IMG/VR virus record: IMGVR_UViG_3300032116_000424
Coordinates: 1-43,497 of that record
DNA length: 43,497 nt
Source: a virus
Direction: 5' to 3' (one strand)
Part shown: positions 6,683-42,774 of the stretch, one piece after another
Layout: every line of letters starts with the position of its first letter
Numbering within the stretch: position 1 is the stretch's first letter
Made by a program: the position numbers and the translations under genes
Notes under the pieces: model-generated
Database searches by the model: none
Seen by the model: the letters and a program-made list of their open reading frames with translations, nothing else
What the model was told of the DNA's origin: nothing

Positions 6683-6971
6683 CCTGATTCATACGCTAGC
6701 CGAGGAGTGCGGTCTGCTGGTGCCTCATGCCCGGCAGATTGTCGATCGGATGTTCGACCTGATGATGGACGCGACCTTGGCAGGTGGGTTTGAAGTCAGG
6801 GGGTTCGGCGTGATGGAAACCCGAATGACCAAGCCGATGATCGGACGGAACCCGCTGATCCCGGATGTCGAGATCGTGATTCCGCCCCGGCCGAAGGTCG
6901 TGTTCCGGCCGTCGAAAGAGTTCCGCGACCGGGCGATCAAAACACTTGCGGTTGGGGGTCGTAAGAAGTAG
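6669..6971 (+). CDS. HU/IHF-family DNA-binding protein, 100 aa
   Basis: A classic HU/IHF layout: an N-terminal helical dimer region (MTKSDLIHTLAEECGL), the G-F-G turn (FEVRGFGVMETR), the DNA-intercalating beta arm with GRNP (about residues 58-61), and the C-terminal VVFRPSKEFRDRAI. Members bend DNA as dimers and help replication, packaging or recombination. The start at 6669 gives the usual N-terminus and overlaps the previous gene. It stops at TAG (6969-6971), and readthrough would meet another stop near the following terminator, so this amber is a genuine stop. Confidence 0.9.
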   Translation: MTKSDLIHTLAEECGLLVPHARQIVDRMFDLMMDATLAGGFEVRGFGVMETRMTKPMIGRNPLIPDVEIVIPPRPKVVFRPSKEFRDRAIKTLAVGGRKK

Positions 6972-9745: not shown

Positions 9746-9978
9746 CTCACTCCCTCCCGCTTGAGCACGGTGCAGATGGCTCCGGAGGAGCGGTTAAATT
9801 TTTTACCAAGCTCATTGAGACTGTAAGTTGGGTTAGCCCGGAAAAATGCCGCGATCTTCTTTGATTCCTCTTTGCTGATGGCAGACCAGATGCCACGCGG
9901 TTTACCCTTCTCTATTACTGGAAGCGGAGGTTGCGGCCCCAGGATGCGCTCGATGGCTTCACGTGATGGGGTTTTCAT
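9742..9978 (-). CDS. HTH-like protein, 78 aa
   Basis: A second small HTH-like protein: KKIAAFFRANPTYSLNELGK then KFNRSSGAICTVLKREG. The N-terminal 30 residues are Pro-rich. It overlaps the RecE-like gene by 20 bases and the next gene by four. Its HTH half resembles that of the following gene in pattern, so the two may be distant paralogs. Confidence 0.6.
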   Translation of the reverse strand: MKTPSREAIERILGPQPPLPVIEKGKPRGIWSAISKEESKKIAAFFRANPTYSLNELGKKFNRSSGAICTVLKREGVR

Positions 9979-10756
9979 CCTTCAGAATGTATGCTGGGGA
10001 TTGAATGATCTGGATAGAATCGCCGTTGTAGCCCGGCCAGCTGTCGGTGTCTTCGCAGACCATCCACTGGCGGATCCACGACTGCCACGTGCTGGAACCC
10101 TTGTCCAAGGATTCGGTGTCCAGCTGGTACACAGCCACGGCGTAGGGCGCTTGGTCTTCGACGCAGATCCACTGCCATGCGCGGGTCTCGCCGGTGATGT
10201 CCCGGTACAGGTCCCGGTAGTACGCGGCCTGCACGTCGTAGCGCAGCTGGCCAATCTGCCGGCGGAACCCGGCCTTGCTAGCATCGCGGCACTTCTTGAG
10301 GTCCACGATCACCGGCGTCGTGTTGGGCAACCAGTCGATCAGGCCTTTCCGTTCGCAGGACTCGAACTCGCCGAACATCCCGACCTGCGCCTTGCCTGGC
10401 TCAGCCAGCAGGCGACCTGCAACTGGGTGTTCACGCACGGCCTCGACCATGCGCTCGACGATCTCGATGGCGTCCTGCTTGAACACGGTGACGCCACGCT
10501 CGGTCTGCTCATCTCTCCACGAGCGTGCCTCCTTGGTCCGGTAGTCGTCGTATGGCGACGTGGTCCACAGGTACGGCGTGCCGAGGACCTTGTGGTCCAG
10601 CAAACTGCCGATGGCCATGGCTTCGGTGGTTTCCTTCTCTTCCTCAAAGCCGACCATGGCGTGCGCTGGCGAGCGGGAGAATGCCTTGAGTGAAGAGACG
10701 TTGATCGCAGGGTGGCTGCGGTAGGTGTTTACGTCGATGGGGTGGACTAACTTCAC
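9959..10756 (-). CDS. RecE-like PD-(D/E)XK exonuclease, 265 aa
   Basis: The nuclease core of the RecE/DUF3799 (PD-(D/E)XK) class is visible: an upstream Glu-containing segment (FGEFESCERKGLIDWLPN, Asp at about residue 140), then VIVDLKKCRDASKAGF with the D-L-K catalytic step (about 150-160), then LRYDVQAAYYRD (about 170-180). Such enzymes chew one strand of double-stranded DNA to leave 3' tails for RecT. The GTG start at 10756 overlaps the recT stop and has GGGAGGT about 6 bases upstream; this and MKLVHPIDVNTYRSHPAINV, a typical RecE start, decide the start. The pairing with recT supports the call. Confidence 0.85.
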   Translation of the reverse strand: MKLVHPIDVNTYRSHPAINVSSLKAFSRSPAHAMVGFEEEKETTEAMAIGSLLDHKVLGTPYLWTTSPYDDYRTKEARSWRDEQTERGVTVFKQDAIEIVERMVEAVREHPVAGRLLAEPGKAQVGMFGEFESCERKGLIDWLPNTTPVIVDLKKCRDASKAGFRRQIGQLRYDVQAAYYRDLYRDITGETRAWQWICVEDQAPYAVAVYQLDTESLDKGSSTWQSWIRQWMVCEDTDSWPGYNGDSIQIIQSPAYILKDENPIT

Positions 10757-11745
10757 AGCGCACCTCCCGCCTTCTGCACCGCACGACCGATGCCGCGCTT
10801 GTTGCGGATCACCCACTTCTTCAGGTCATCGGTGAGATCGTTCGCCGTCGGGTACGCCTCGGGCGTCGGCCACCAGTTCAGTTCCGTGGCGAGCTTCACC
10901 AGCTGCTCGTAGGTCGCACCGACCGATGTTAACGTGGACTCGACGGTGTCTTCAACCAACTCGGGCAGCGGTGCGGGGGTGGCAGGAATCTCGAACGGGG
11001 CAGGCGTGGGCTCAGGCTCGGGAGCCGGCGCAGGCTCCGGCGTGGGTTCAACGACCGCGATGGCCTCGGGCTCGACCTTCTTCTTGCGCTTGGGCTCGGG
11101 CGGATTCGGCGTCACGTCCACGACGGACGCGGTGACCGTGGTGGCGACGGACGGCTGAACGACCTGCTGGGACGCCTGGGTGTCGTGGATCTCTTCCGAG
11201 GTGTGCATACCCAGCGCGATCTCGGGCGCGTAGGCGCGGCACCAGAACGCAGCGGCGCGGTACTGGAGCATCTGCTCCGGCATTGTCTTCCACTTCGACC
11301 CAGACTTGCCGTACCAGCCCTCGGCCTTGGCCATGGCGATCGTCACCAGAGCGCCGACCAGTTCAAGGTTGCCCTCCCTCTCGACGGCGTAGGCGCGGCA
11401 ACCCCAGTCATCTGTCCCCTCTTTTCCGACCCAGCGGAACCGCATAGGGCTGAACCGGCCGCAGCTGTTGACGGTGGCGATCAGGAACGAGGCACTCCAG
11501 GTGGGCTTGCCGTGGATGGGAACCATGGACTGCATCACGGCCATGACCGAGGCACCGATGCGCTGTGACAGTTCGAGCGCGATGATGCAGTTACCGAGGT
11601 TGGCCTCGCCCCGGTACGAGTCCGGAACGAGCGTGCTAGACGCCAAGGCCTTGGCCATGCGCTGCACGGAGACAAACGCGTTCTCCGAAGAGAAGGCGCT
11701 CAGAGGTTGTTGTTGCTGTGTTGCTACTTGCAGTTGGTTGCTCAT
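10753..11745 (-). CDS. recT: RecT-family single-strand annealing protein, 330 aa
   Basis: The N-terminal 190 residues match a widespread phage RecT family: QRMAKALASSTLVP, then GNCIIALELSQRIGAS, MQSMVPIHGKPTWSASFLIA, NSCGRFSP, AMAKAEGWYGK, SKWKTMPEQMLQYRAAAFWC and YAPEIALGMHTSEE in order. The protein anneals complementary single strands and acts with the RecE-like nuclease downstream. After the core comes a Pro/Glu-rich linker (about residues 215-270, repeated PEP/PAP) and a small C-terminal helical piece. It heads the minus operon that runs to 7139. A promoter-like pair lies just upstream of the ATG. Confidence 0.92.
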   Translation of the reverse strand: MSNQLQVATQQQQPLSAFSSENAFVSVQRMAKALASSTLVPDSYRGEANLGNCIIALELSQRIGASVMAVMQSMVPIHGKPTWSASFLIATVNSCGRFSPMRFRWVGKEGTDDWGCRAYAVEREGNLELVGALVTIAMAKAEGWYGKSGSKWKTMPEQMLQYRAAAFWCRAYAPEIALGMHTSEEIHDTQASQQVVQPSVATTVTASVVDVTPNPPEPKRKKKVEPEAIAVVEPTPEPAPAPEPEPTPAPFEIPATPAPLPELVEDTVESTLTSVGATYEQLVKLATELNWWPTPEAYPTANDLTDDLKKWVIRNKRGIGRAVQKAGGAL

Positions 11746-11787: not shown

Positions 11788-14256
11788 TCATCGAACACCT
11801 CGGTCGATTTTTTCTCGGATTCTAGTACGAATTCGTTCGGTGTCCTTGCTGATAACTTTGATCGCTTGGTCCGGCGTGGCAGCCAGCAGTTGCGGTCCCT
11901 TTCGCAACACGTACTCGCGGTACTGCTGACCAACCTCTCGTTGGTAGCGGTAGAACTCTTCGGGAGTCATCTGACGGCGCGTGCCGTTCTCGCTGACCTT
12001 TGCAGCTGCCGAAGGTGTAGGGAGAAACACTCCGCGCTCTGACAGCGTGGCCAGCGTGTTCCAGGCGGGATCATCCTTGCGGGTTTTGATCCAGCGGCTG
12101 AACGGATGCTTCATTATCTCCACGGGTTCGCCCAGGACGTTGACCATGGGACCGGCGCCGATGTCGCGACGAAGCATAGGCACCTGCTGGAGGAAATACT
12201 CGGAGCCCAGTTTGGCTTGGTAATACTGCGGATCGAAGTACGTATCGACCTGCTTGAGGATGTTCGGGATGAACGATCCAGCAAGGCGCCCAGCCCAGCG
12301 GGACAGGTCCTTGTTGACCAAGTCGTCGGCGTTGTACTTGTACGCGTTGGTCATGCCTACCAGTTCCGTGAAGGCGGAGATTGCAGGCGAGTCGGTCAGT
12401 ACAAACATACCAGCCTGAGCGGCATCCTTGAACTTTCCGAGGATCGCGTCGCGATTCCATTCCTTCGGGTTGTGCAGCTGGTGATCGCGCAACTCGCCGA
12501 TGGCAGCCAAGCCCATCGCGAACGGCATCTGCCGGTAGCTGATGAACTTGTCTCCGATGCGGATGGAATACGGTTGCCGACCTTGAGCGAGCAACTGCCG
12601 CTTCTTGTCCGGATCGAGCGATCGGTAGGACCCAGTGATGTCGATGTTGCGATCCTCTTCCTTGTCATCATCACCGAGGAACAGCGCGCCGGCCATGGCC
12701 ATGAGCGAGGTTCCAATCGAAGCCTTCATCAACAGGAGCTTCCGCTCGTTGTCGCTGATCTGGTAACCGAACGGCTTGTTGATCCGACTGGAATTGCTCA
12801 GGTAGTACCGAGTGAATCCCCACGGCAACCAGTCAATGCTGCTGTTGGTCGCGTTGGCCGCAAACCGCAGGAACGCCAGTCCGGTGACCATCTTGACGCC
12901 TGGGTACTTCTTCTCGGCTTGGTTCAGCCATTGATAGAAGAGACCAACAATGCCAGTCGGGTCCTGCTTGAACGCGGCTTGGCGGGCGAGTTCTTTCGCG
13001 TCGATCAGGATCTCGGACGGGATTCTGGCTTCCAGGATCTCACGAACACGCTGGTTGATGCGCTCGGCGGGAAGCCCCTCGGACTCGGCTTTCTCTCTGG
13101 CCAACTGCACGTCAGACGCCTCTGGGATGAGGTACTTGCGGATCTGCTCCTTGTCTCCACCACGGGCAATGATCCATGCCTTCATGGCTTCGTAGTTGGA
13201 AGTCACGGCCACGTGGTCCATGGCGTCCATGAATCGGGACACGAAGCGCAGATTGCTGATCACCTTGAGCGCCAGGTTGTCCGAGTCCTTCAATGCTTCG
13301 AGCGTGCTGGTCGGGCGCTCCGGATCGAAGTTGATGCCACGGAACATCTCGCCCTTGGCAAGGATTGCCGGCACGTCCTTGAACGACCGACGCAATCCAT
13401 CGAGCCACGCAGACGCGATGTAAGGCGCAGAAGTCCCGCTCTGCACGGATGCAAGGCCGGCGTTGATCATGCTGTTGATGATGCCGGTGCCCTGCTCGAC
13501 AGCCGTAGTCAGACCGGACAACACGGATCCGTACCAGTAATCCATGATGATGTTGCGAGCGCGGATGCCGCCCTCTCGCTGCATCAGCTGGTACATCTCT
13601 TGGATGATCTTGTTTCGGGCGGTGCCACCGGTCCTCTGGGCGCGTTGCGCCATGTCGGAGATCTTCTGGGCAGTCTCGCCATTGATCTGAGCCACTCCAA
13701 ACTTCGGAGCGATGGCGTTGCGGAACGCATCAGCGGCCGCTTCAGGATTGGTGAGCAGACCGAGGTTAGCCCACTTGATGATCTCCGGGACGGAGTCGTA
13801 GATCTTCTTGCGAACCTTCTCCTGAACCTCGGGCAGTTTGACCTGCTTGCGGAACTCGTCGCGAACGATTTTGTTGCGCTCCTTCTCGAAGGCATTGCCG
13901 AGAAGGTTGGCGAGTTCGATCTGACCCGCACGGCTCAGCGTCTTGAGGATCGGGTGCTCGCTGATCACGTCGAGCAAGATGCGCTTGTAGTTCCCCTGCT
14001 TGTCCAAGCTGGAGGTCATTATGTCCTCCCAGGAAACACCAAGCTCTCGGCGAGCCTGCTTGAGTTCGCGAGACACGACGTTGTCAGCGATCGACAGTGT
14101 AGACCGGATGTTGGCAATGGCCCGACGTGAGGAGTCGAGCAACCAGCGGCGGATCTGATCGGATGAAACCTCAGGGAACGGAATCTCCTTCTGACGCTCG
14201 TTGATTAGGTTGTAATAGGTCAGCGTAGGAGTCAGGTAGTCGATGTCGCTGATCAT
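11788..14256 (-). CDS. C-terminal part of the giant polyvalent virion protein (822 aa from the first ATG)
   Basis: A long, mostly helical region with scattered hydrophobic stretches (WYGSVLSGLTTAVEQGTG, LMAMAGALFLG). The order of motifs (an S-G-L-T-T-A segment, RFMDAMDHVAVTSNYEAMK, then YPGVKMVTGLAFLRFAANAT) resembles the large-polyvalent-protein-associated domains at the C-ends of giant phage virion proteins; I could not confirm the exact domain. The frame is the same as that of the 2312-residue gene upstream and is open from just after its amber stop (14488-14490). The ATG at 14256 has no Shine-Dalgarno site and no ATG, GTG or TTG lies in frame between, so separate translation is doubtful. 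Ends in TGA. Confidence 0.75.
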   Translation of the reverse strand: MISDIDYLTPTLTYYNLINERQKEIPFPEVSSDQIRRWLLDSSRRAIANIRSTLSIADNVVSRELKQARRELGVSWEDIMTSSLDKQGNYKRILLDVISEHPILKTLSRAGQIELANLLGNAFEKERNKIVRDEFRKQVKLPEVQEKVRKKIYDSVPEIIKWANLGLLTNPEAAADAFRNAIAPKFGVAQINGETAQKISDMAQRAQRTGGTARNKIIQEMYQLMQREGGIRARNIIMDYWYGSVLSGLTTAVEQGTGIINSMINAGLASVQSGTSAPYIASAWLDGLRRSFKDVPAILAKGEMFRGINFDPERPTSTLEALKDSDNLALKVISNLRFVSRFMDAMDHVAVTSNYEAMKAWIIARGGDKEQIRKYLIPEASDVQLAREKAESEGLPAERINQRVREILEARIPSEILIDAKELARQAAFKQDPTGIVGLFYQWLNQAEKKYPGVKMVTGLAFLRFAANATNSSIDWLPWGFTRYYLSNSSRINKPFGYQISDNERKLLLMKASIGTSLMAMAGALFLGDDDKEEDRNIDITGSYRSLDPDKKRQLLAQGRQPYSIRIGDKFISYRQMPFAMGLAAIGELRDHQLHNPKEWNRDAILGKFKDAAQAGMFVLTDSPAISAFTELVGMTNAYKYNADDLVNKDLSRWAGRLAGSFIPNILKQVDTYFDPQYYQAKLGSEYFLQQVPMLRRDIGAGPMVNVLGEPVEIMKHPFSRWIKTRKDDPAWNTLATLSERGVFLPTPSAAAKVSENGTRRQMTPEEFYRYQREVGQQYREYVLRKGPQLLAATPDQAIKVISKDTERIRTRIREKIDRGVR

Positions 14257-14490
14257 TGCCCGGCGCGCTTGACCGCTCTGACCGAAGTCTTGGGCGCCAC
14301 TCTGGGCAGCGACCTCGCCGATCTTGCGCAGCAGGTAGACCCATCGCTGTTGGTCTATCGGATTACGGAACGATGCTTGAACTCGGGCGGCAGTGCGCTC
14401 GATCAGTTCGCCAAGGATGGTCTGCTGAAGGGCCGGAGTGATACCGAACTGAGTGGCTCGGTTTCCACCAGTGGCAGCGGTGAAGGCCTA
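14257..14490 (-). other. In-frame amber codon and open junction between two halves of the giant gene
   Basis: The codon at 14490-14488 reads TAG on the minus strand, after GAC GAC ATC GAA. The next 77 codons, down to the ATG at 14256, contain no stop and read as normal protein (for example QQTILGELIERTAARVQASF). I checked every triplet of this interval. Upstream 2312 codons plus downstream 899 form one frame of 3212 positions with a single stop inside. Confidence 0.85.
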
Positions 14491-17400
14491 TTCGATGTCG
14501 TCTCCAAACTGATCGACCCATTCGCGGGCAGCGGCTTTGCGCTCCGCGTTGGTCTCACGAACGATGCGCCCCTGGAAGAACCCAGCAGACGGGCGACGGC
14601 GTTGACCAGCAGCAGCGCGAGGCGGCTGAACCTCTCGTTGCTCAAACGCACCAGTACCTGGAGTCTCGAATGCGCCTTCGATCAGCTGGCCGATTTCAAC
14701 CTCGGCAGCGGCGAAGTCCGTGTTCGCAGGAGCGTTCTCGCGCACATACTCGATCGCAGCCTGACGCGCTTGAACGATGTCGCGGGTCTTGATGTACACC
14801 GCACGCGCAGCCCGGAGCGCCAGATTGATCACCGCCAGCGGAATGGCTGCTGTGGATTCGTATGAACCCTGTGGGCGGGTAGCTTGGATCGCCCGGTTCA
14901 ACAGGTTCTCGACCTTGTCGTACATCAACCGACCGAGGTCGGGGTTGATCTGTTCGGCTACGGACATCAGAGACGGCGCATCGGCCGCATCCATCGTGCC
15001 TACAAGGAATGATCCCTTCTGAACGAGGTTATCCGGGAACAGGCGCTGGACGCTCGGGTTAGACCAGACCGGCCGTAACGCATTGCCAGCCCGAATGCGA
15101 ACCTCGTACTTGCCACCACCGACAGGCTTGATGCGAAGCAGTTCAGCTGCCTTCGCGCCCTCACTCTCGCCCTTGGCAAAGACCTCGGTGCCTGCCCTCA
15201 GAAGCGAGATGGCTTCTTCTCTCGGAACCCGGATGTCCTTCACCTTCCGCTCAGGCGTGAAGTTCGCCGGCATCAAGATGCCAGTCTTCCGCTTGCCGGT
15301 GTTGGTCGTGTAGATGGTGATCTTCGGGCGAACCTCAGATGCGCCACGCGCTCCCTGGAAACCCTTCAGGAGGTTGCCGGTCACGACGTACCGCTGATCG
15401 GTCGTCTCCGTTGTGGTCTGCCATTCTTCAGCAGCGTTGGAGACTTGCTCGCCAAGAGAAGACGCACTCTCGGCGCCTTCCGATATCGACAGCGGCATCG
15501 AAGCACGCGAGCGCACCATGTTGCGCATTAAGAGCAGCTGGTGATCGGACGGGCGAGTGAAGTTGCCGGGGTCGTTCGACTTGAGCTTGAGCCCGATCGG
15601 GACCGCGACGTAGCCAAATTGGTTTTTGAATGCGCGACCGATCTTCTGATACGCAAAGATAATCATCTGTCGGGTGTCCTGGAACGCTTCCCTCACAGAT
15701 TGGATCTGCGCCGGAGTGACCTCCTTGGCCTCCATGGCAGCAACACGCTGTTTCTCGAAGGCGTAACTCTGATTGAGCCACCCCTCGTAGATAGCCTTGG
15801 TTGTAGCCCGATTCTTGGAAGCCTCTTTCGTAGCGGCTTCGTAGGTCGGGGGAGCCTTCGGGGGCTTGATGGAAACGCGCTCCATGACGGAAGGCCCGTC
15901 AAACGGAGTGGTTCCAGTTCCAGGAGTAAACTCCGAGGAGTCAACCGTTTTGGCCCGGAGATCATCGACGTTCGCCTTCAGCGGGTTCTCGCCAACCTCA
16001 TCGAGTGCGCGGATGCGGTCGGTGTAGAGTTCCGATATGTCGCGCCAGAGCTTGGCCGCGTAGTCATCCGGAAGGATTACGAAGTAGCCCGTGGCCGATC
16101 TGGCGAAGTCTCCGCCTTCGTCGATGCCTTCTTCAAGCGGAGGAAGGCTGAAGTCCATCTGGTCAACGATCTCAGGATTGGATTTCAGGACGTTGTAGAC
16201 CACGTCATCGCCAATCGAGTTGAAGATGTCAGCGACCAGACCCTCGTTTGCGGTGAGATCCGATTCAGTGTCCGCAGACGTGTTGGCATTCAGCGACGCC
16301 ATCTTGCGGCGCAGCAACACCATGAACCGATTCTCAGCAGCCAGCGAAGAGGATAGAACCACGTAACGCGGCAGGCTGGTCTGACCGAAACGCATAATGC
16401 GCCCGAGCATCTGCATGAAGTCGTTGATGTCCGGGGCAGCCTGCCCAACGATCATCACACGACGCCGCTGGTCTTTGAACTTCGGATCAGTATGCGCGCT
16501 GGTTCCAGTTGAGCCCGACTTGTTGACCAGGATGGCGTCGAGCCGACCGTTGTTGAAGTCGTCCAAGACCACGCGTCGATCGCGCTTTTTCCTTGGTACA
16601 GAAGTCGCCTTACCATCGGGCGTGGTGACGATCTCCGTGTTTCGTCCGGTGATTTCGTCGATGGAATAACCTGCTTGCTGAATGCGGTTCTTGATGAAGT
16701 CGATGGGCGAGATCGGCATATCTCCAAAATCACCGACTTCGATTTCAAAGCGAATATCCTCGTACTGCTGGCGAGCATCATCCGGAAGTTCGTCAGGCGT
16801 GATTTTAACCGTAGTCTTCGTGTCGGCCGCTTTGTCGCGAACGGTGACCTCAAGTAGTTTGTCCAGCTGGCGAAGCAGCAATCCTTGGTACGAAACATCG
16901 TAACCCTCTTCCTTCAGGGTTTCGATCGGACCTTCCATCGTGTTGTTGATCGCGATGAACGGCTTCTCATTACCCTTGAGCGTTTGGATTGCGTTGTCTG
17001 CAATCGCTTTGGCCTTCAGGGACAGAATGTACTGGGTCGAAAGATTGAACAGCTGACTTCCAAAATTCGTGGATGAAACGCTGACCTTCTCTTCTGATGC
17101 GCGAATCTGGTTTTCCGCGTTCTCCATCTTCTTAGCGACTTTTGCGACCTTCTTGCTGAAGCGCAGGATCTGCTGAAGAAAGTCCGTGTACACATCGGCC
17201 AGCTCGCGCTCGCGCTCTGCGTTGTCGGTGGACGTGACGAAATCAAACGGCACGCCGCCCCAGTTCTGCTCACGGCGCACGAACTCGCCGGATTCAGCGA
17301 GCATCGAGGTCAACGCCTGCTGAAGCGCCAAACCGCCGCTGTCCAGCAACTCGGTCATTTCGGTCGGGCGCAATCCAGCGCGCTGCATCAACGTCTTGAG

Positions 17401-20400
17401 CGCGTAGAGCCCGAGGTTGTCTGGTCGCTTGGCGAATGTCGCAGATGCGAAGTACGCGCCCTTGGACTTGGGCAGCACCTGGTCAAACCGGATGTTCGTG
17501 TCGGAATTGGCGCCGGCCGCAAGGTGGGCTTCGTCCAGCACAAAGATCGCGTTGGGAGCAATACGGGAGAGCGCCTGCCAGATCGGCCCAAACGGTTTGG
17601 CAATCCGCTTGGATTGGCGCTGACGCCGTTGCTTGGCCACCTCCTTGAATCCCTGGGGAACGTCAGCCTTCAGCTGGTCGTAAGTTGTGAAGAACGCATT
17701 GGATCCAGTCGGAAGTTCAGCTGTGTCGTTGATCTTCGCCAGTTCCTCACGGGCTTTCGCGGCCGTTCTGCGCACCTTTACGGTTTCGCCAGTGGATGCC
17801 AAGTAATCGACATTGCTGTTCGTTACATACGGCCGAATGCCAGTTTCTCCGATCGCCGGAAGATCCCGGCCGGCCATGTCAGAATACAGGGTGGGCTTGG
17901 CGGTGATGAACACCGGAGTCAGGCCGTTCAGTCGGGCATACCGCAATACAGCAGCCACAGTGCGTCCCTTACCCACGCCGGTCTGGTCTGAGTTGATCAG
18001 CGCCGAACCGCGTTCAATATTACGGATCGCCAATCCCGCAGCATCAATCTGCGCGGCTGACATCGTCTTGAACAGCTGGTCCTTAGACATCTGCAACCGA
18101 TTGGCGACGTACTCGTCGATTGGCATTTTGACCTCGGCCTCCAATTCGCGGAGGGCGCGCTCAGTGGCGTCTGCGATGTTTGAAGGGCTGACCAACCCGG
18201 TTTCCGCGTTCTTGCTTTGGCTCTTGTAGGGCTTGGTCCGGGCCTCGGACATCACCTCTGGCTCTGCATCCGTTTCGGGCTCGACTGGAATCTCGGGTTC
18301 CGTGGGCACCGTGGCCTGATCAATGCCAGCAATCACCTCGTTAGCTTGCTTGCGTGTCAGGTCGTCCAACCCTTCGACCGTGTTGGAGGTCTCCTGCCAG
18401 ATGGCCAGAAGTGATTGCTTAAGCTTGTCCCAGATTTCAGGGAGATCCGCTCGAACCTGAGCGGCAAACTCAGAAAACCGTCGGATACCGGCTTCTGCAT
18501 AGATACCAGCCATGCGGGCGCCGATCACAATGATCTCCGGATCGACGCCCATGCCGACGCCGCCGAGCTTGTCGCGCAGCTGCTTCTTAAGGGCCTCCAG
18601 CTGCGCCTGTTTTTCGGCCGACAGGTTGGAGGTTAGTCCGGGCCTTGCGGCAGGCGGCTTAACCACAGGTTCAGGCCGTCCACCCGCCACGACTCCAGCT
18701 GCTCCTGGTTGTTCGACTGCGGCCGCTGGCTCAACCACTGGTCCAGCTGCCGTCGGTTCACTTGGAGCAGCAGGTCGTTGTTCTTGAACACTTGGTACAA
18801 CTGGTCCGGGTCCAGGAACAGGCTGCTCGACAGGTGCAGGTTCTGCCCGCTGTCCTTGAGGTACGATTTCAGGACGCGCAGGCGCTCCTGGAACGCCTCC
18901 GGGTTGTTCTCCACCTCCTGCAACTGCTGGCTCCACAGCTGGGAGATTTCCGACGCCAGTTGCTGCTGGGGTGACAGGGGTTGTGACTTTCGTTTTGCGA
19001 GCTTCATTGATCAGCGGTTTGAGGTCTGCCCAGCTATTGTAAACGCGAGGTGCCGAAATCCACGGACGGACCAAGCCTCCTTGGGCAGCGGGAGGGGTTG
19101 ATCGTTTTCCGTCGATTACCACAATATCGACCGGCCATCCTGCGCCCATCTTGGAGTACATACCTCCGTCGATGGTGAAGAAGTCGGTGACGTTGAACCG
19201 ATTGAACAGGTCGAGGTACTCAGCCCGATCGTAGGATTTGAGCCGGTTTTCGGGAGTTCCCAGCTTGTTGGACTGCGATCCAGTCTTGGATCCCAAGATC
19301 AGCACGGCCTTTCCGTTCGGGGCCATGGCTTCGAGCGTGTTCAGCGCGATGGCGAGGTCGATGCTCGATGTCTGCGCACGCTTGATGCTGCTCCTGAAGA
19401 GCGGGAAGGACTCCTTCTGGCCTTCGATGAATCGAGCGCCAAACGGAGGATTGATAATGACGCGATCCGGCTGAGCAGAATCCAGCGAGTTGAAGAACTC
19501 TTGGCTTACCGCATCGAGTCCGGTCGCAGGCTTGCCGATGAAACGCTCCAAGCGCGTGCGGCGATTCGGGTCCAACTCGTTGGCAAGAATGTCCTGCTTG
19601 GTCGGATCCGACGTGACCAGGAGCATTCCGTTGCCGGCAGTCGTCTCGGCCACGCGTTGGCCTCCCTCTACATCCGCCAGAATGCCGGCCAGATAGGCCA
19701 GCGGCGGCGGAGTCGAGTAGGCCTGCGCAGTTTTGCTGGACGCAGTGCGAGTCCCCAGCTGCGGCTGCTCCTCGTACCGCTGAGCGAGCTTATCGTAGGT
19801 CTCAGTCGGATCCACTCCGGCCGACCGATCTTCACGAACGGTCTGGGCTGTTGCTTCAACGATCTGCGATTCGAGTTCCTCTTCGGCCGCCTTCTTGGTC
19901 GGTTCAACCAGTTTGGGGGCAGGAACCGGAGTCGGTTCGGCAGGGGGAAGCGCAGACGCCGCTGGAGAGATTTCCTCCGGCGGACGGATTAACTCTTCCG
20001 GGACGACCGGCGCTTGGGCTTCGGGCCTTCCTCCTTCGGTAGGCCGCCCTCTTTGATCCACTTCTGGCAGTCCCACTTGGACTTCGGGTTGCGGCTCTTC
20101 TCCGCGAAGCAGGCCTTCATCTGGGCCTTGTTCTTGAATGGCACTGGGTGTGGGGGGTTGGAGTTCGGGTTGTACGGGCGCTTCAGTTACAATCGGTGCA
20201 ATCGGCTCCGCCGGCGGCGCAATAGCCTCCTCAACAGCGGCAGGGATCGTGGGCTCAGGCTGGATCTGAATCGGACCAGACGGAGGACCTCCGGCGTTGA
20301 TGCCACCAAGCTCTTCAGCAATGTCAGGGGTAAGCTCATCTTCGATCCCGGCCACGGTAGCGGCAGAGTTCGGGAGAGGGTTGGCGGGATCACCGCCAAT

Positions 20401-21426
20401 GGATGCCCGGATGGCAGCCTCGCGATCAACGACGGTTTGAATGTCGTCTGTGGCAGGCGCTATGCCCCTGGCAAGGCGTTGCTCCTGCAAACTGCGAAGT
20501 CTTTGGCCACGCGAAATCTTCCCAGCACCACCTGCAACAAGACCAACCAACGTACCGACGCCAGCACCAACCTCTCCGGATTCAAGGATACCTTGACCGA
20601 GTTTCTGGTCAGGATTGTAGATTTTCTGAGCCGCCAGATTCTGAAGAAATTGTTCCGATGATTCCTGAGCAGCTTCTGTAAGGCCGGTCTTAATGGCGCC
20701 ACTGACAACCCGTTTTCCAACGGCACCGGTCACCAAACGCTTCACCGCCGGAACAGCGCCCAGCGCGCCTTCTGTGATCGCTCCAACGGGAGCGGTTGCC
20801 ATGAGGACCTTGCGCTGTGCTATCGGCTTTTCGGCGCGGAGTCGGTTGGCCTCTACCGTGTTTCCACTGGCCAACGCTTCCGCAATCTTGGTGTCGTAGA
20901 ATTGACCAGCTTGCTGCGCCGAATCCTCACCGGTGCTCAAACCATAAGCCAGCTGGCCAATGATCGGGACAGCGGAGACTGGAAGAGATCCAACGCCGCT
21001 CGCCAGCTGGGTAAGGTAATCTTCTTCCCGCAGCGGGTTGACCGGGAACGCTTCTCTTGCGCCCTCTTGAAGATTCTGACCGAGCTTGAACGTGGGGCTC
21101 GTTTCAGTTCGCGCCTGGAGTTCCTCAGGTGAAACCGCTTTGGTGCGTTGCTCCCATTCCGCCAGACGGCGCTCGTAGGCTGCCATTCCAGCGGGGCTTT
21201 CAGCCTGTGCTGCCGTAATGGCAGGAGGCGGTTCCTCAGATGCTGCACGCGCCAAACCCATCATTGCGCCGCCGACCATTCGGCCGCCTTCGCGCATGAC
21301 CGCTGATCCAGCGGCAGCTAGCCTGCCTTGGTCGAATGTATCGACAAGCTCTTGAAGTTCGTTTTCACCAACATCATCAGGAACCTCGATTAGGCCGATG
21401 TCTTGAATATCAACGAGCTTAGGCAT
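14488..21426 (-). CDS. Giant polyvalent protein with methyltransferase and SF2 helicase domains (DarB-like), 2312 aa
   Basis: Domains in order: a glycine-rich, hydrophobic N-terminal region (about 1-330); Pro/Glu-rich linkers (about 380-520); an adenine-methyltransferase module with an AdoMet-site-like AETTAGNGML (about 593) and NPPFG (about 659); a second Pro-rich linker (about 780-920); and a superfamily 2 helicase with Walker A TGVGKGR (about 1150), VLDEAH (about 1295), SATF (about 1328) and MLGRIMRFGQ (about 1675). The remainder to 2312 is unassigned. This layout matches phage P1 DarB, an internal head protein injected with the DNA that protects against type I restriction, of similar length. 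It follows internal-virion-like genes, fitting a packaged protein. Its frame continues past the amber stop. Confidence 0.85.
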   Translation of the reverse strand: MPKLVDIQDIGLIEVPDDVGENELQELVDTFDQGRLAAAGSAVMREGGRMVGGAMMGLARAASEEPPPAITAAQAESPAGMAAYERRLAEWEQRTKAVSPEELQARTETSPTFKLGQNLQEGAREAFPVNPLREEDYLTQLASGVGSLPVSAVPIIGQLAYGLSTGEDSAQQAGQFYDTKIAEALASGNTVEANRLRAEKPIAQRKVLMATAPVGAITEGALGAVPAVKRLVTGAVGKRVVSGAIKTGLTEAAQESSEQFLQNLAAQKIYNPDQKLGQGILESGEVGAGVGTLVGLVAGGAGKISRGQRLRSLQEQRLARGIAPATDDIQTVVDREAAIRASIGGDPANPLPNSAATVAGIEDELTPDIAEELGGINAGGPPSGPIQIQPEPTIPAAVEEAIAPPAEPIAPIVTEAPVQPELQPPTPSAIQEQGPDEGLLRGEEPQPEVQVGLPEVDQRGRPTEGGRPEAQAPVVPEELIRPPEEISPAASALPPAEPTPVPAPKLVEPTKKAAEEELESQIVEATAQTVREDRSAGVDPTETYDKLAQRYEEQPQLGTRTASSKTAQAYSTPPPLAYLAGILADVEGGQRVAETTAGNGMLLVTSDPTKQDILANELDPNRRTRLERFIGKPATGLDAVSQEFFNSLDSAQPDRVIINPPFGARFIEGQKESFPLFRSSIKRAQTSSIDLAIALNTLEAMAPNGKAVLILGSKTGSQSNKLGTPENRLKSYDRAEYLDLFNRFNVTDFFTIDGGMYSKMGAGWPVDIVVIDGKRSTPPAAQGGLVRPWISAPRVYNSWADLKPLINEARKTKVTTPVTPAATGVGNLPAVEPAVAGGGEQPGGVPGAPARPEIVPQGQRAEPAPVEQPVPGPGPVVPSVQEQRPAAPSEPTAAGPVVEPAAAVEQPGAAGVVAGGRPEPVVKPPAARPGLTSNLSAEKQAQLEALKKQLRDKLGGVGMGVDPEIIVIGARMAGIYAEAGIRRFSEFAAQVRADLPEIWDKLKQSLLAIWQETSNTVEGLDDLTRKQANEVIAGIDQATVPTEPEIPVEPETDAEPEVMSEARTKPYKSQSKNAETGLVSPSNIADATERALRELEAEVKMPIDEYVANRLQMSKDQLFKTMSAAQIDAAGLAIRNIERGSALINSDQTGVGKGRTVAAVLRYARLNGLTPVFITAKPTLYSDMAGRDLPAIGETGIRPYVTNSNVDYLASTGETVKVRRTAAKAREELAKINDTAELPTGSNAFFTTYDQLKADVPQGFKEVAKQRRQRQSKRIAKPFGPIWQALSRIAPNAIFVLDEAHLAAGANSDTNIRFDQVLPKSKGAYFASATFAKRPDNLGLYALKTLMQRAGLRPTEMTELLDSGGLALQQALTSMLAESGEFVRREQNWGGVPFDFVTSTDNAERERELADVYTDFLQQILRFSKKVAKVAKKMENAENQIRASEEKVSVSSTNFGSQLFNLSTQYILSLKAKAIADNAIQTLKGNEKPFIAINNTMEGPIETLKEEGYDVSYQGLLLRQLDKLLEVTVRDKAADTKTTVKITPDELPDDARQQYEDIRFEIEVGDFGDMPISPIDFIKNRIQQAGYSIDEITGRNTEIVTTPDGKATSVPRKKRDRRVVLDDFNNGRLDAILVNKSGSTGTSAHTDPKFKDQRRRVMIVGQAAPDINDFMQMLGRIMRFGQTSLPRYVVLSSSLAAENRFMVLLRRKMASLNANTSADTESDLTANEGLVADIFNSIGDDVVYNVLKSNPEIVDQMDFSLPPLEEGIDEGGDFARSATGYFVILPDDYAAKLWRDISELYTDRIRALDEVGENPLKANVDDLRAKTVDSSEFTPGTGTTPFDGPSVMERVSIKPPKAPPTYEAATKEASKNRATTKAIYEGWLNQSYAFEKQRVAAMEAKEVTPAQIQSVREAFQDTRQMIIFAYQKIGRAFKNQFGYVAVPIGLKLKSNDPGNFTRPSDHQLLLMRNMVRSRASMPLSISEGAESASSLGEQVSNAAEEWQTTTETTDQRYVVTGNLLKGFQGARGASEVRPKITIYTTNTGKRKTGILMPANFTPERKVKDIRVPREEAISLLRAGTEVFAKGESEGAKAAELLRIKPVGGGKYEVRIRAGNALRPVWSNPSVQRLFPDNLVQKGSFLVGTMDAADAPSLMSVAEQINPDLGRLMYDKVENLLNRAIQATRPQGSYESTAAIPLAVINLALRAARAVYIKTRDIVQARQAAIEYVRENAPANTDFAAAEVEIGQLIEGAFETPGTGAFEQREVQPPRAAAGQRRRPSAGFFQGRIVRETNAERKAAAREWVDQFGDDIE

Positions 21427-22296: not shown

Positions 22297-23043
22297 TTAG
22301 ATGGTTTTCGGCATGATGCTCTGCTGGGTGGAAACAAGGTCACTGGTGCCCTTACCGCCTCCAAAACCACCCTGTCCAAGGGAAGCGAATCCAAGGTTGG
22401 TCAGGCCGGTTCCAAGCGAACCAATGCCTTGTCCAAAAACACCCGTTGCGCTCGGCATACCGGCAACACCGAGCATCGCCTGCTGCTGTGCGCTACGTTC
22501 GCCACCGCGCAATGCGGCAATCTGCTGCGGCGTGAATTCGTAGTTCGCCAGCGGAGCCAACGGCGTGGTTCCAAGGATGTTGGAGAACTGCTGGTTTCCG
22601 AGATTGGCCATCTCAAGGCTGGTCCTACCAAGATCGCGAGCGACAAGGTTTCGTCCAGCTGCACTTCCCGCGTAGCCACCTTGAACAGCTTTAGCGGCCG
22701 CATTGCGCTGAACCTGCGCCGCGACATCTGGAGGAAGTTCGCCTCGAAGTAGTGCTAGCGCGTTCTCAGCGCGCTTGGCCTGCGCCTCCTGATAGCCCGG
22801 GACTTGGATGCCTAGCGACTCTAGCAGCTGTGCGCGGTTGTACGCGTTGCGCTGAGCCTCCATTTCGCGAGCACGGGGCGCATTGAGAGTGGACTCTCCC
22901 ATTGCCGCACCAATGTTAATGCCAGGAAGATTTGCAGCTTCACTGGCTTGGCGACGCGCTGCGCTAGCAGACGATGCCTGAAGACCCATCCCGATACCCG
23001 ACGTGACAACGCCGGCTCCGATTGCTGTGGCTACGAATGACAT
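22297..23043 (-). CDS. Internal virion protein-like, 248 aa
   Basis: It starts with a hydrophobic Gly/Ala-rich segment (VATAIGAGVVTSGIGMGLQA) and continues with Ala/Gln-rich helices, including AAGRNLVARDLGRTSLEMAN, and a Gly-rich C-terminal third. This resembles small internal virion proteins of podoviruses (T7 gp14-like), which form part of the ejection channel. The assignment rests on composition and position. The ATG overlaps the upstream gene's TAG stop region by 13 bases. Confidence 0.55.
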   Translation of the reverse strand: MSFVATAIGAGVVTSGIGMGLQASSASAARRQASEAANLPGINIGAAMGESTLNAPRAREMEAQRNAYNRAQLLESLGIQVPGYQEAQAKRAENALALLRGELPPDVAAQVQRNAAAKAVQGGYAGSAAGRNLVARDLGRTSLEMANLGNQQFSNILGTTPLAPLANYEFTPQQIAALRGGERSAQQQAMLGVAGMPSATGVFGQGIGSLGTGLTNLGFASLGQGGFGGGKGTSDLVSTQQSIMPKTI

Positions 23044-23486
23044 GGTAAGTATTGGTTCTGCCTCACGTAGGTGAGGTCGTTCAAAAGCTCTTCGTGATCC
23101 GTCTTGTTATCGAGATTCAGGTGGACCGTTGTCCAAACGGTGTCCTCATGGATCAGCAGCACCCGACGAGTTCCAGGCTTCGTGATGCCGGAGTATGGCG
23201 CCGTGTACGTCACCCACCCCTCGTTCTCGCTGACCACCGTGACCTTGCCCTTGGTGACGAAGAACGGGTTGGCGAACTTGTGGATGCGGCTGGTAATCAC
23301 AGACCCAGCCGGCATGAAGATTTCGCGCACGTACATCCCTTCAGGAAACGTGTGCTTCAGGGGGCACTCCTGAGGTGGCAGGTTAGCAACGAATGCTTCC
23401 CACCTGTCCAGGCGGTCATCGAACGTGATGGTTTCATCCGTGAGGATGTCCAACCACGTCAACGGCTTTTCCAGCGCCACCTCCAT
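23031..23486 (-). CDS. Cupin-fold protein, 151 aa
   Basis: The core MYVREIFMPAGSVITSRIHK, then FFVTKGKVTVVSENEGWVTY and VLLIHEDTVWTTVHLN, gives the alternating strands and turn (PAGS...H) of a small cupin barrel. Phage cupins near tail genes are recurrent and may be structural or modify the host surface; function is not known. Its stop is TAG (23033-23031), overlapping the start of the next gene. Confidence 0.7.
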   Translation of the reverse strand: MEVALEKPLTWLDILTDETITFDDRLDRWEAFVANLPPQECPLKHTFPEGMYVREIFMPAGSVITSRIHKFANPFFVTKGKVTVVSENEGWVTYTAPYSGITKPGTRRVLLIHEDTVWTTVHLNLDNKTDHEELLNDLTYVRQNQYLPCHS

Positions 23487-28719: not shown

Positions 28720-30759
28720 CTAGGCAGATAGGAGTGGGCAGGCCACCCGGCTGAGGTCGCCGTAGATGTCCTCCTGGAGACGTTGGGCAACCATAGCAAT
28801 ACGCTTCAAGCGAAACCTGCCGGTGTTCACGTAGCGCAGCTGGAATTCGTACCCGTCGCGAGTAAAGCCGCCAGTCTGCACGTCGCACTTGTCCGGGGGT
28901 TGCGGCAGGGCAATCCGCGAGCGGGTCGGAGGCTGGTAGTATTTGACCTCCTGGCAGTTGATTACCGCCGGAGGGCACGAAATCTCACCAGGCTCGCAGT
29001 TGCGGTACTTGGCGCAGTCCTTGAACTCGGCCCACGGCTGCCAGCACTCGCCTTCGTTGGCCTTGAAGTAGACCTTCGATTCGATGTCGCCCATCACCTG
29101 GTCATACCACTGCTCGGCGCTCACTAGACGCTTCTTGTTGGTGGGCTCCGCGAAAGTCAGCGAGCGCGTCTCAATGGTCCAGTCGATCGGCGCATCATCG
29201 AACCCGTCGAAGTCGAACTGGCCGTTCTTGGTCACCTCGTAAAGGCCGATGTCACCTTGATTCAGCCCGAAGATAAAGCATCGCTCCTGCTTCTGGATTC
29301 GCACCGTCACCATCTGAAGAATATCAACCCCAGTCCAGACGCCTTCCCACGCCGGCGGTAGCTTTCGGCCCATGCCAGAGACGAGATCGAAATCCATCGC
29401 AACCATGCCACGGTGGACAACGCCGCGTCCGTTGACCTTCTCCGGCTGAATGGTCATCAGCATTCGGTTGTCGAAGTTCACCGCGCTAGCAGCTGTCAGG
29501 TAAAACTCAGTGTCGTAGGCTAGCGCCCTAACGACCTGTCGGCTGATCGGCGTGTTTCCAAACTCGGTGAAATCGCGGCGAGCGTAGATTAACGACCGGA
29601 TGCCGTCCTGCGCACGGAAGAACAGGTCGCCGTTGACTGGGACAATCGACTCATGGTTGAACGACCCGAAGTTTAGAAGGGCGAATCGTTGGATCGGATA
29701 ATTAAGATCCTTCCAAACATCCCGATCGACTGGAGCGTTAAACGCGTAGGTCGCGGTGGGCGTGAAGACCAGCAGGTCGCCATCTCCTAGCGATGTGTCC
29801 AAGTTAGCGGCAAACGCCAGTCCGGTAATTGGGCCGTTGGAAACCGCGAAGGCGCCACCTTCATTGAGAAACGTGTTTTCGGTGAATCGAATGACTGAGT
29901 TGCGGCCGTATGCAGGATCACCGTAGACAAGGTCGCCACCGTAGTATTCGGATCCTTTGGCAACCCAGAGGCGTCCTTTGCCGTAAGCCATTGGGCCACC
30001 TACAGGCACCTCATCACTTGCCGCTCTTCGGAACGACGTGCCGTCGTAAAGGTACGGAGCGTTTTGTTGATCCTGAATGATCAACCAGTTTTCCGCCTGC
30101 TGGAAGTAGACATGATCCGCATTCGGATTATTGGCTGCCAGTATGTAGCCGATAAAGCTAGGTCCAAGCAGCGGTCCAGCGTCGATTCCAGGCGAGTAGA
30201 CTGTGAAAGTTGTCGTTGACGGCGTTGTCTGCACCACGAAATCGCCAAAGAACCCTTCTGGGTAGAGGGCGCCCACCGGCTCTGGAAGCCTGACAACCAT
30301 GCCTGGAAACAAACCGTGAGCCCCAGCGGTCACGTAGGTTGCCACATTGGACACCCTTCCACGTGTGTTCACCTGGAATGTTCCGGTCTGAGGGGTTCGA
30401 TCCGTAACTCGAAAGTTGTTCCCGATGTCGATCTGAAAGATTTTTCCGCTGATCGCGGCGTACAGGTATGGCTCCCCCTGATCGTTGGTGTAGGCGCCGC
30501 AACCCTGGAAATAACCCGTCTTGAATGCAGATTCCACAACGGCGTTGTAGTACCCACCGTTGTAGACCACGTCCGGATCATCAAACGTCAGATTCTTCAC
30601 CCAGATCCCAGGCCGCGCTTTCGGGAATCCGCCGCGCACCGTCGTGTTGACTGCCCAAGCCAGTTGGTTGGGCTGAATAAGTGAGGGCGAAAAACCGCTA
30701 TCCACCCCACCTTCAGCGGTAAGGAGGCCATCTACGATGCGATTTTTTTCTGCGACCAT
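28720..30759 (-). CDS. Tail nozzle-like protein (tubular protein B-like), 679 aa
   Basis: It begins VAEKNRIVDGLLTAEGGVDS then PNQLAWAVNTTVRGGFPKAR, and runs through beta-propeller-like repeats (YLYDGTSFRRA, ARRDFTEFGNTP). This matches the general layout of T7 gp12-like nozzle proteins, which form the tip of a short tail. One copy of the module repeated in the tailspike lies near residues 130-195. The end is Cys-rich (DCAKYRNCEPGEISC, CPPAVINC). I start at ATG 30759; an earlier TTG-like start at 30801 is possible. The stop is TAG (28722-28720); readthrough would add only a few codons. Confidence 0.65.
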   Translation of the reverse strand: MVAEKNRIVDGLLTAEGGVDSGFSPSLIQPNQLAWAVNTTVRGGFPKARPGIWVKNLTFDDPDVVYNGGYYNAVVESAFKTGYFQGCGAYTNDQGEPYLYAAISGKIFQIDIGNNFRVTDRTPQTGTFQVNTRGRVSNVATYVTAGAHGLFPGMVVRLPEPVGALYPEGFFGDFVVQTTPSTTTFTVYSPGIDAGPLLGPSFIGYILAANNPNADHVYFQQAENWLIIQDQQNAPYLYDGTSFRRAASDEVPVGGPMAYGKGRLWVAKGSEYYGGDLVYGDPAYGRNSVIRFTENTFLNEGGAFAVSNGPITGLAFAANLDTSLGDGDLLVFTPTATYAFNAPVDRDVWKDLNYPIQRFALLNFGSFNHESIVPVNGDLFFRAQDGIRSLIYARRDFTEFGNTPISRQVVRALAYDTEFYLTAASAVNFDNRMLMTIQPEKVNGRGVVHRGMVAMDFDLVSGMGRKLPPAWEGVWTGVDILQMVTVRIQKQERCFIFGLNQGDIGLYEVTKNGQFDFDGFDDAPIDWTIETRSLTFAEPTNKKRLVSAEQWYDQVMGDIESKVYFKANEGECWQPWAEFKDCAKYRNCEPGEISCPPAVINCQEVKYYQPPTRSRIALPQPPDKCDVQTGGFTRDGYEFQLRYVNTGRFRLKRIAMVAQRLQEDIYGDLSRVACPLLSA

Positions 30760-32575
30760 GACGCTTGAACCGATTGAAAGGCCATCGCAGGATTCCCGCA
30801 AGATGAATGAAAGCCCCGATTACTTGTCCATACCGTGGCGTACAAAAGACCGCTTTCTCATCGAGGCCGAGATGGTGCGTCGTGGAGGGTACATTCACAA
30901 CGCCGGCGTAAAGTACGGCCAGGGCAAGTATTACCACTTCCGTGCTGCCATGACCGCGCTGTGGCCGCACTTCGATTGGCATGAGTGGTCGGAGCTTCTG
31001 ATCCAAGCATTCGTCGAAAACCAAGAGGTCGGCATCATGGGGCCGGGTTCATCTGGCAAGACGTACAACTCCGCAGCGTTCGGGCTGTGCTCGTTCTACA
31101 TCTGGCCGAAGGGCACCTCGATCATCATGTCGTCAACGACGCGTGAGGGTCTCCAGCTGCGCATCTGGGGCTCGATCAAGGAGCTTCACAACAAGGCCAA
31201 GGAACGGCGCGAATGGTTGCCGGGGCGCGTGATTGAAAGCCGATTCATCCTGACCAGTTCGGATGAAGATGCCGAGGCGCAGGACTTCCGTGACGGCATC
31301 ATCGGTGTGGCGTGCAAGGTCGGCGGCACGTTTGTCGGCCTCTCGAACTACGTCGGTTTGAAGAACGACCGCGTGATGTTGATCGCTGACGAAGCCTCGT
31401 TGATGGGACGCGGTTTCTTGGACTCGGTGGCGAACCTCCGAAAGAACCCCGAGTTTAAGCTGATCGCGATGGGCAACCCCAAGGACCGCAACGATGCGCT
31501 TGGTGTGGTGTGCGAACCGCATCCGACGTTCGGTGGTTGGGAGGGTCTTGAATACTTGGAGAAAACACGCACCTGGAAAACGCGAGCGCCCGGTGGTCTC
31601 GCTGTCCAGCTGTGTGGGTACGACACGCCGAATGCGAAGTTCCCCAAGGGCACGAATCCGTACCGAGGCATCATCACTCCGGAGCAGATTCAGGCGGACC
31701 TCGATTACTACGGCCGGGATTCATTGCAGTTCTCGATGATGAACCTCGGTCTGCTGCCTCGGGACGGTGGCACCAGGCGCGTGGTCACGATGTCGCTGTG
31801 CGAACAGAACCAAGCGTTCGACGATCCAGTTTGGGAGCGCGCCGATAAGATCACGCGGATCATCGGCATCGACGCAGCGTACTCAGGCGTCGGCGGTGAC
31901 CGATGCGTAATGACCGACCTGACGTTTGGGCCGGACTCATCGGGCCGCATCGTGCTAGCATTCACCGAGACGCCCATCGTGATTCCCGTTACGGCGGTCA
32001 AAGCCCAGCAGGCCGAAGAGCAGATAGCTGAGTACGTTCTTCTCTATTGCAAGCAGCGCAACATCCCGCCTGAGCGCGTTGGGTTTGACTCCACTGGACG
32101 CGGCACGCTGATGTCTGCGTTCGCTCGCTTGTGGTCTCCGCAGGTCGTTCCGATCGAGTTTGGTGGCAAGCCGTTGGATCGCCCGGTACGCCAGGGAGAT
32201 CCGAAGACTGAGCGCGAGGCCTACGGCAAGATGGTCACCGCACTGTGGTACGCGTCGCGTCTGCTGATTGAATCCAAGCAGCTGCGTAAACTGCCCCGCG
32301 AAGTCGCTGAAGAAGGTTCGATGCGCGAGTGGGGTATCGCCCGCACTGGCCTGATCGACGTTGAGCCAAAGCACAAGACCAAGGAGCGCATGGGTAGGTC
32401 GCCTGACTTGTGGGATTCGTTCGTGGTCGCACTCGAAATGGCGCGCCGAAACGGTTTTGAGATTGCAGGCGGCCAAGGTGTTGGTATTGTCAAGCGACAG
32501 ACACCAAAGTGGCTGACGCGTATGTCTGACAAGCGCCGGTCAGTGGAGTCTGAACATTCATTAACTTACTCCTGA
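30737..32575 (+). CDS. terL: Terminase large subunit, 612 aa
   Basis: Complete ATPase-nuclease layout: Walker A GPGSSGKT (about 102-109), Walker B VMLIADEAS (about 212-220), and the RNase H-like nuclease acids in GIDAAYSG (about 376), GFDSTGRG (about 450) and PDLWDSFV (about 557). TerL pumps DNA into the prohead and cuts it. The start at 30737 has AAGGAGG (30721-30727) nine bases upstream; a later ATG at 30803 has none. With this start it overlaps the divergent nozzle-like gene by 23 bases, so the start is somewhat uncertain. It leads a + strand packaging block. No small terminase subunit gene is recognised nearby. Confidence 0.93.
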   Translation: MRFFSATMTLEPIERPSQDSRKMNESPDYLSIPWRTKDRFLIEAEMVRRGGYIHNAGVKYGQGKYYHFRAAMTALWPHFDWHEWSELLIQAFVENQEVGIMGPGSSGKTYNSAAFGLCSFYIWPKGTSIIMSSTTREGLQLRIWGSIKELHNKAKERREWLPGRVIESRFILTSSDEDAEAQDFRDGIIGVACKVGGTFVGLSNYVGLKNDRVMLIADEASLMGRGFLDSVANLRKNPEFKLIAMGNPKDRNDALGVVCEPHPTFGGWEGLEYLEKTRTWKTRAPGGLAVQLCGYDTPNAKFPKGTNPYRGIITPEQIQADLDYYGRDSLQFSMMNLGLLPRDGGTRRVVTMSLCEQNQAFDDPVWERADKITRIIGIDAAYSGVGGDRCVMTDLTFGPDSSGRIVLAFTETPIVIPVTAVKAQQAEEQIAEYVLLYCKQRNIPPERVGFDSTGRGTLMSAFARLWSPQVVPIEFGGKPLDRPVRQGDPKTEREAYGKMVTALWYASRLLIESKQLRKLPREVAEEGSMREWGIARTGLIDVEPKHKTKERMGRSPDLWDSFVVALEMARRNGFEIAGGQGVGIVKRQTPKWLTRMSDKRRSVESEHSLTYS

Positions 32576-41181: not shown

Positions 41182-42774
41182 TTAGATTGAGAACTCTAGG
41201 GTCACGTTGGTGCAGCTGCTGCCGGCCAGCTGGATCAGGTTGCCAGAGACAACGCTCCAGGTGCCCTGACCGGCGCCAAACTCGGCGTCCCAGGCGGCTT
41301 GCAACGCAATAATCAGAGCAGCCACGCTGGCCGCGCTGATGCCAGCGTTAGCGACGATGTTGTCGTCGCACATGATTCCGGTGGTTCCGATGACATAACG
41401 AGCCGGGTCGGCATCGTTGATGACCGCCGTGAACTGGATGACGCTCGGGCAGACAGGGTCCGCAGAGTTGTAGCTCTGAGCAGGATCGCCAGGATCAGCT
41501 TCGCAGACAGGGATGATCTCGATGCAGCCACGATCAACCTTGTGGAAGATAGCTTCAAGCCATTCCGGATGCTCGGCCTTCACGGCCAACTGGAAGTCGG
41601 CAATGAACTTGCCCTTGTTGCCGCGACTGTTGTCGATCGGCTTACCGGCACAGTCCGCGCCCAGGTCATTGGTCGCGAACTTCCAACGCCCACCATAATC
41701 CCGAACCATGAACGGCATATTCGGGTTCACGGCCTCGGGGCGGAACGGCATCACGCGCAGGGCGCGAGGGTTGTTGATGTAGCTGATCTGGAACTGGGCG
41801 CGGTCGTAGTCTTCGTTGAAGACAGACTTGATGCCCTCGGTAGCAGCCACGTTCTTGTACGGCAGGACCAGGGTGTATTCACCAGGAGTAGTCGTCGCGT
41901 TGAAGCGCAACGGGAACTGGAGAACCTTCACCATGAAGTCGCCGACGAATCCCATGAAGCCGTACTTGTAGAATTCCTTGGCAGCCGGGGCGAAAACGCC
42001 GAAGCGCCAGGCATCGTACAGGGTAGCGTTGGTCTTCTGGAGATACCGGAAGGTATCCTTGTCAGTGTGCAGCTGGAGGGAATCGTACCCTTCCTTGCCG
42101 GCCTGGATAGCACCCAGGAAGTACTGACGGGTAACACGCGACTGGAGGATTTCCGGAGTCAAACGTCCCAACGAAGCAGCGGTGATCGGTGCGAGGGCGG
42201 CGTTCGTCACGCGCAAACGGGTGTAACCGGCACCAACCCAGGAATAAATCACCGCAGGTAGACCGACGGCGCAAGCAAAGGCGTTGCCGCTGATGCCAGT
42301 CGGGCTGTAGCTGGACAACTCCATCGCCTTGCGCTGGAGGTAGTAGGTCGTGATCCAGTTCGTGGCCGGACGCAGCACGTCGTCGATGATCTGACGGAAG
42401 TGCTCCTTGGCCTTCGTCTTCGTCATAATCTGATCGAAGCACAGGATGTCGGAACCCCAAGACTGCTTCTCCAGAGCGTAGGTGCTACGGGTCCAGCCCC
42501 AACCGATCTTGTTCTCGGTAGGATCGCAGGGTTGGCCAGTGCAGGCCGCGCCAGTCGGGTTTTCCCACGCGCCAGTCACATTTGGGAACACGCTGTTGAA
42601 GCGGTCGAAGGTGTGTTGCGTGCCGGAATACGCGTCAAACGATCCGGTGTTGTAGTATCCGATCATCCCGTCAAACGGGCGGATATCCTTAAGCACTTCC
42701 TTGTCATACACAGGCTCCTGCGAGACGAGGAAGGAAGCGAACTGCTTACAGCTGATTACATTTCCACTGGCCAT
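41182..42774 (-). CDS. Major capsid protein, 530 aa
   Basis: Size, composition and N-terminal region (DIRPFDGMIGYYNTGSFDAY) fit a HK97-fold capsid protein of podovirus size; I do not see a match to a named subfamily. The middle has ordered mixed strands (KVLQFPLRFNATTTPGEYTL, VMPFRPEAVNPNMPFMVRDY). It is rich in Cys (about 12), several in pairs (CTGQPC, CIEIIPVC). The ATG at 42774 has CAGGAG about 8 bases upstream. It is on the strand opposite to scaffold and portal. Confidence 0.7.
   Translation of the reverse strand: MASGNVISCKQFASFLVSQEPVYDKEVLKDIRPFDGMIGYYNTGSFDAYSGTQHTFDRFNSVFPNVTGAWENPTGAACTGQPCDPTENKIGWGWTRSTYALEKQSWGSDILCFDQIMTKTKAKEHFRQIIDDVLRPATNWITTYYLQRKAMELSSYSPTGISGNAFACAVGLPAVIYSWVGAGYTRLRVTNAALAPITAASLGRLTPEILQSRVTRQYFLGAIQAGKEGYDSLQLHTDKDTFRYLQKTNATLYDAWRFGVFAPAAKEFYKYGFMGFVGDFMVKVLQFPLRFNATTTPGEYTLVLPYKNVAATEGIKSVFNEDYDRAQFQISYINNPRALRVMPFRPEAVNPNMPFMVRDYGGRWKFATNDLGADCAGKPIDNSRGNKGKFIADFQLAVKAEHPEWLEAIFHKVDRGCIEIIPVCEADPGDPAQSYNSADPVCPSVIQFTAVINDADPARYVIGTTGIMCDDNIVANAGISAASVAALIIALQAAWDAEFGAGQGTWSVVSGNLIQLAGSSCTNVTLEFSI

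Follow-up and report, generated by a model that had tools for sequence, protein, structure and literature searches.

Whether a stop codon inside a giant phage gene serves to make two forms of one protein, or is an accident of a single record, is the question raised by the in-frame amber codon (TAG) at 14490-14488 on the minus strand of the window, the whole stretch of DNA analysed here, a linear virus record from IMG/VR that is 43,497 bases long. The codon closes a frame of 2312 codons (21426..14488) that begins with an ATG at 21426, after which the same frame stays open for 899 codons and ends at its true stop, a TGA at 11790-11788 on the same strand (11788..14487 for this C-terminal stretch including the TGA). 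Recounting the frame on the minus strand gave the same lengths and coordinates as the original prediction. The earliest possible start past the TAG is an ATG at 14256, the 78th codon, which lacks a Shine-Dalgarno-like sequence, as had been stated, but a second in-frame ATG at 14019 had been missed; with GGGAGG five bases upstream (14017..14030, minus strand), it is a candidate internal restart for a product of 743 codons.

The giant gene is predicted from profile matches to encode a DarB-like polyvalent protein of known kind, the identity originally proposed for it. Its initial 2312 codons, which are N6-methyltransferase-like and then encode a strawberry-notch-type SF2 helicase, matched phrog_10089 (DarB-like antirestriction, 5.6e-19) in the PHROG search and the helicase profiles PF13871 (1.4e-18) and PF13872 (8.8e-11) above cut-off in Pfam, with N6_Mtase just under the cut-off (E 0.0019). 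Like DarB-like polyvalent proteins (P1 DarB, PHROG 10089), the product is giant and multidomain, joining a methyltransferase-like segment, here sub-threshold, to a superfamily II (SF2/SNF2) helicase in one phage protein, and tail-fibre and tail protein genes are among its neighbours. It is unlike most polyvalent proteins in that its helicase matches PF13871/PF13872, the strawberry-notch type having been described in only a few of them (Iyer et al. 2017, PMC5512222), and it is set apart from DarB-like proteins by an amber interruption found in this record alone. In phage P1, DarB is a component of the virion head and acts in cis to shield the DNA of the phage against type I restriction (PMC5512222). 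For the protein studied here, packaging in the virion and injection are hinted at from sequence alone by the tail-gene neighbourhood and by a weak match of the C-terminal 899 residues to phrog_6651 (internal virion protein, 2.5e-4); a Pfam search with these residues gave no match. The gene at 23031-23486, originally labelled a cupin, instead matched the PHROGs for short tail fibre protein (1.2e-29) and tail fibre adhesin (5e-20). Directly downstream of the giant gene, at 9959-11745, lie exonuclease VIII-like and RecT-like genes, a RecE/RecT-type recombination pair.

Relatives were collected by scanning IMG/VR, the query being the 898 residues that follow the amber, which gave 30 loci (8 close and 22 distant relatives), and the amber column was read from a whole-gene protein alignment, the comparison of homologous phages that the original prediction had called for. 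A sense codon occupied this column in all 30 loci, with the frame uninterrupted there, and an amber codon in none. Specifically, the codon is GAG (Glu) in each of the 8 close relatives, which concur with one another at 14490 where the window deviates, and it encodes Arg, Gln or His (CGG, CGC, CAG, CAC) in the 22 distant relatives. In 29 of the loci the frame runs without a stop for 1270 codons or more upstream of the match, and in the other (L016) the frame is open as far as the contig end, about 920 codons upstream. In the close relatives the gene is a single unbroken frame of about 3150-3280 codons, and none of them ends it near 14488. An IMG/VR pattern search with NNN at the amber codon returned seven relatives, each with GAG, and one unrelated contig, and an exact search of IMG/VR for the amber allele, from which the window's own record may have been omitted, returned no second contig carrying it. 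No relative was encoded in the bacterial genome contigs searched; the annotated phage collection held no near DNA match and, by protein, a sole relative, a distant record with 25% identity across 60% of the query.

One of the close relatives, IMGVR_UViG_3300042691_023863 (G008, locus L009; 34,402 bases), is essentially the same virus as the window, matching it across 30,325 and 1,284 bases (31.6 kb) with exactly two differences. One of these falls at 14490, where the amber codon begins, with A in the window and C in G008; the other, at 41308, is synonymous (Ile/Ile) in a 530-residue gene at 41182-42774, where G is present in G008, G007 and G004 and A is common to the window and G003. G008 also spans both ends of the window (1 and 43497), inserting 2793 bases between them (locus L041, G008:30326-33118), and this crossing of both ends indicates a circular or circularly permuted phage genome about 46.3 kb long. 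The inserted piece carries a helicase-like frame in which an IIDEAHH motif was read by eye.

Against six close relatives, the 899 codons downstream of the TAG gave dN/dS values of ~0.05-0.09 and, because these values are low, the stretch is on comparative grounds truly coding. The 77 codons preceding the ATG at 14256 gave dN/dS values of 0 to 0.10, with zero against L005, the nearest relative of the window after G008, and 0.02-0.10 against the others. An open frame under strong purifying selection, also across these start-less codons, is in keeping with programmed readthrough of the amber, by which an injected virion protein would be made in short (2312 aa) and long (3212 aa) forms, but an uninterrupted gene in the lineage accounts for the selection equally well. 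Programmed stop-codon readthrough is known from RNA phages of the Q-beta type (A1/coat), and the present locus resembles that case in having a long coding extension beyond an in-frame stop; it differs in that the stop is conserved in the Q-beta lineage, whereas here it is missing from every relative and the near-identical G008 has Glu in its place. The 151 bases around the codon folded as their shuffles do (z = 0.01), showing no notable RNA structure of a stimulating kind, and a search for tRNA genes in the window, the 2793 bases added by G008 and the compared parts of the relatives found none. Because all 30 relatives, the near-clonal one included, have a sense codon, the comparison lends no support to readthrough as an evolved feature, and we regard it as extremely unlikely.

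The long protein could also still be made if TAG were recoded to an amino acid or read by an amber suppressor that the host might carry. The four genes originally listed as closed by TAG (at 6971, 23031, 28720 and 37406) all end in this codon. Among the relatives, G003 and G006 share the window's TAG as the stop of the gene at 28720-30801, and G004 and G007 have TAA at the same residue. For the gene at 25557, the stop is TAA in the window, TAG in G003 and TGA in G004. TAG closes the gene at 23031 in each of the seven relatives where it was found, and likewise the genes at 6971 and 37406 in the relatives found. Because orthologous genes stop at corresponding positions with TAG in some phages and with TAA or TGA in others, this comparison indicates that TAG is an ordinary stop in the lineage, in agreement with the earlier view that genome-wide recoding is unlikely. 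In TAG-recoded phages the codon does not terminate and a suppressor tRNA is usually present; here it terminates at conserved positions, and the sequence examined held no phage suppressor tRNA, so that production of the long protein by either route is given a next to negligible probability. A genuine split into two genes, the second starting from the ATG at 14256 or 14019, would draw on the suitably spaced GGGAGG before ATG 14019 and on the retention of this site in 7 of the 8 close relatives, but it is vanishingly improbable given the continuous coding frame of those relatives, the conservation as protein of the codons ahead of ATG 14256, the missing ribosome-binding site of that ATG and the Leu codon, no start, that replaces ATG 14019 in the 22 distant relatives. 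Restart at ATG 14019 was also rejected as a conserved feature, the same bases encoding conserved residues (WEDIM). It is likewise very unlikely that the TAG is fixed in the population and that, through a host amber-suppressor tRNA or restart at ATG 14019, two products replace the giant protein.

The amber is almost certainly a one-base change private to this record, being either a recent nonsense mutation or a sequence or assembly error, because the relatives, including near-identical G008, all have sense codons. Of the three explanations in the original prediction, these two remain and programmed readthrough does not. A G to T change on the coding strand would have turned GAG (Glu) into TAG in a gene that is otherwise intact in the lineage. 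A very recent nonsense mutation may be present in the phage that was sampled, or in a minority variant that the assembler chose, and we put the chance that the allele is real at about even; alternatively, the base may be a sequencing or assembly error, which is assigned a little under half of the probability. These shares, together with the small remainder left for readthrough, suppression and gene splitting combined, are judgements and not calculations. Oxidative damage may be one source of such an error, and papers on artefacts of this kind exist. Within the gene, a stop would result from 3.5% of all possible substitutions and from 11% of the G-to-T changes, and therefore no special cause is required for one nonsense change among so small a number of private differences. 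With only two differences in the near-clonal pair, it is mildly unlikely by chance that one should be nonsense, although the site was chosen for being so. We infer that the amber has no function.

A real nonsense allele would be expected to give a product truncated at residue 2312, without the conserved C-terminal region; restart at ATG 14019 could perhaps supply a C-terminal fragment. Across the distant relatives the protein can be aligned at both ends but poorly in the middle. Its C-terminal 900 residues, about 44% identical, are the long stretch best conserved in the family, and truncation at 2312 would remove this stretch. The variable middle is effector-like, with methyltransferase/helicase in the window, ART-PolyVal in L010 and DUF7178 in L022 (L026 was also compared). 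The N-terminal ~350 residues (20000-21426 in the window; L002 and L005 compared) occur as two unlike types, MPKLVDIQDIG... and MPIEVDFG.../MGIEIDFG..., and because these are found in phages that are otherwise about 90% identical, an exchange of the N-terminal part by recombination between lineages is suggested.

The comparisons indicate that the amber is not a built-in switch for two protein forms, one near-clonal relative being enough to settle the question of programmed function. As a caution, when one metagenomic contig shows a lone in-frame stop, a private variant or an error is the usual reason. Should the nonsense allele be real, it would represent a natural mutant in which a DarB-like protein has lost its C-terminus, of use only in asking whether the C-terminal region is needed.
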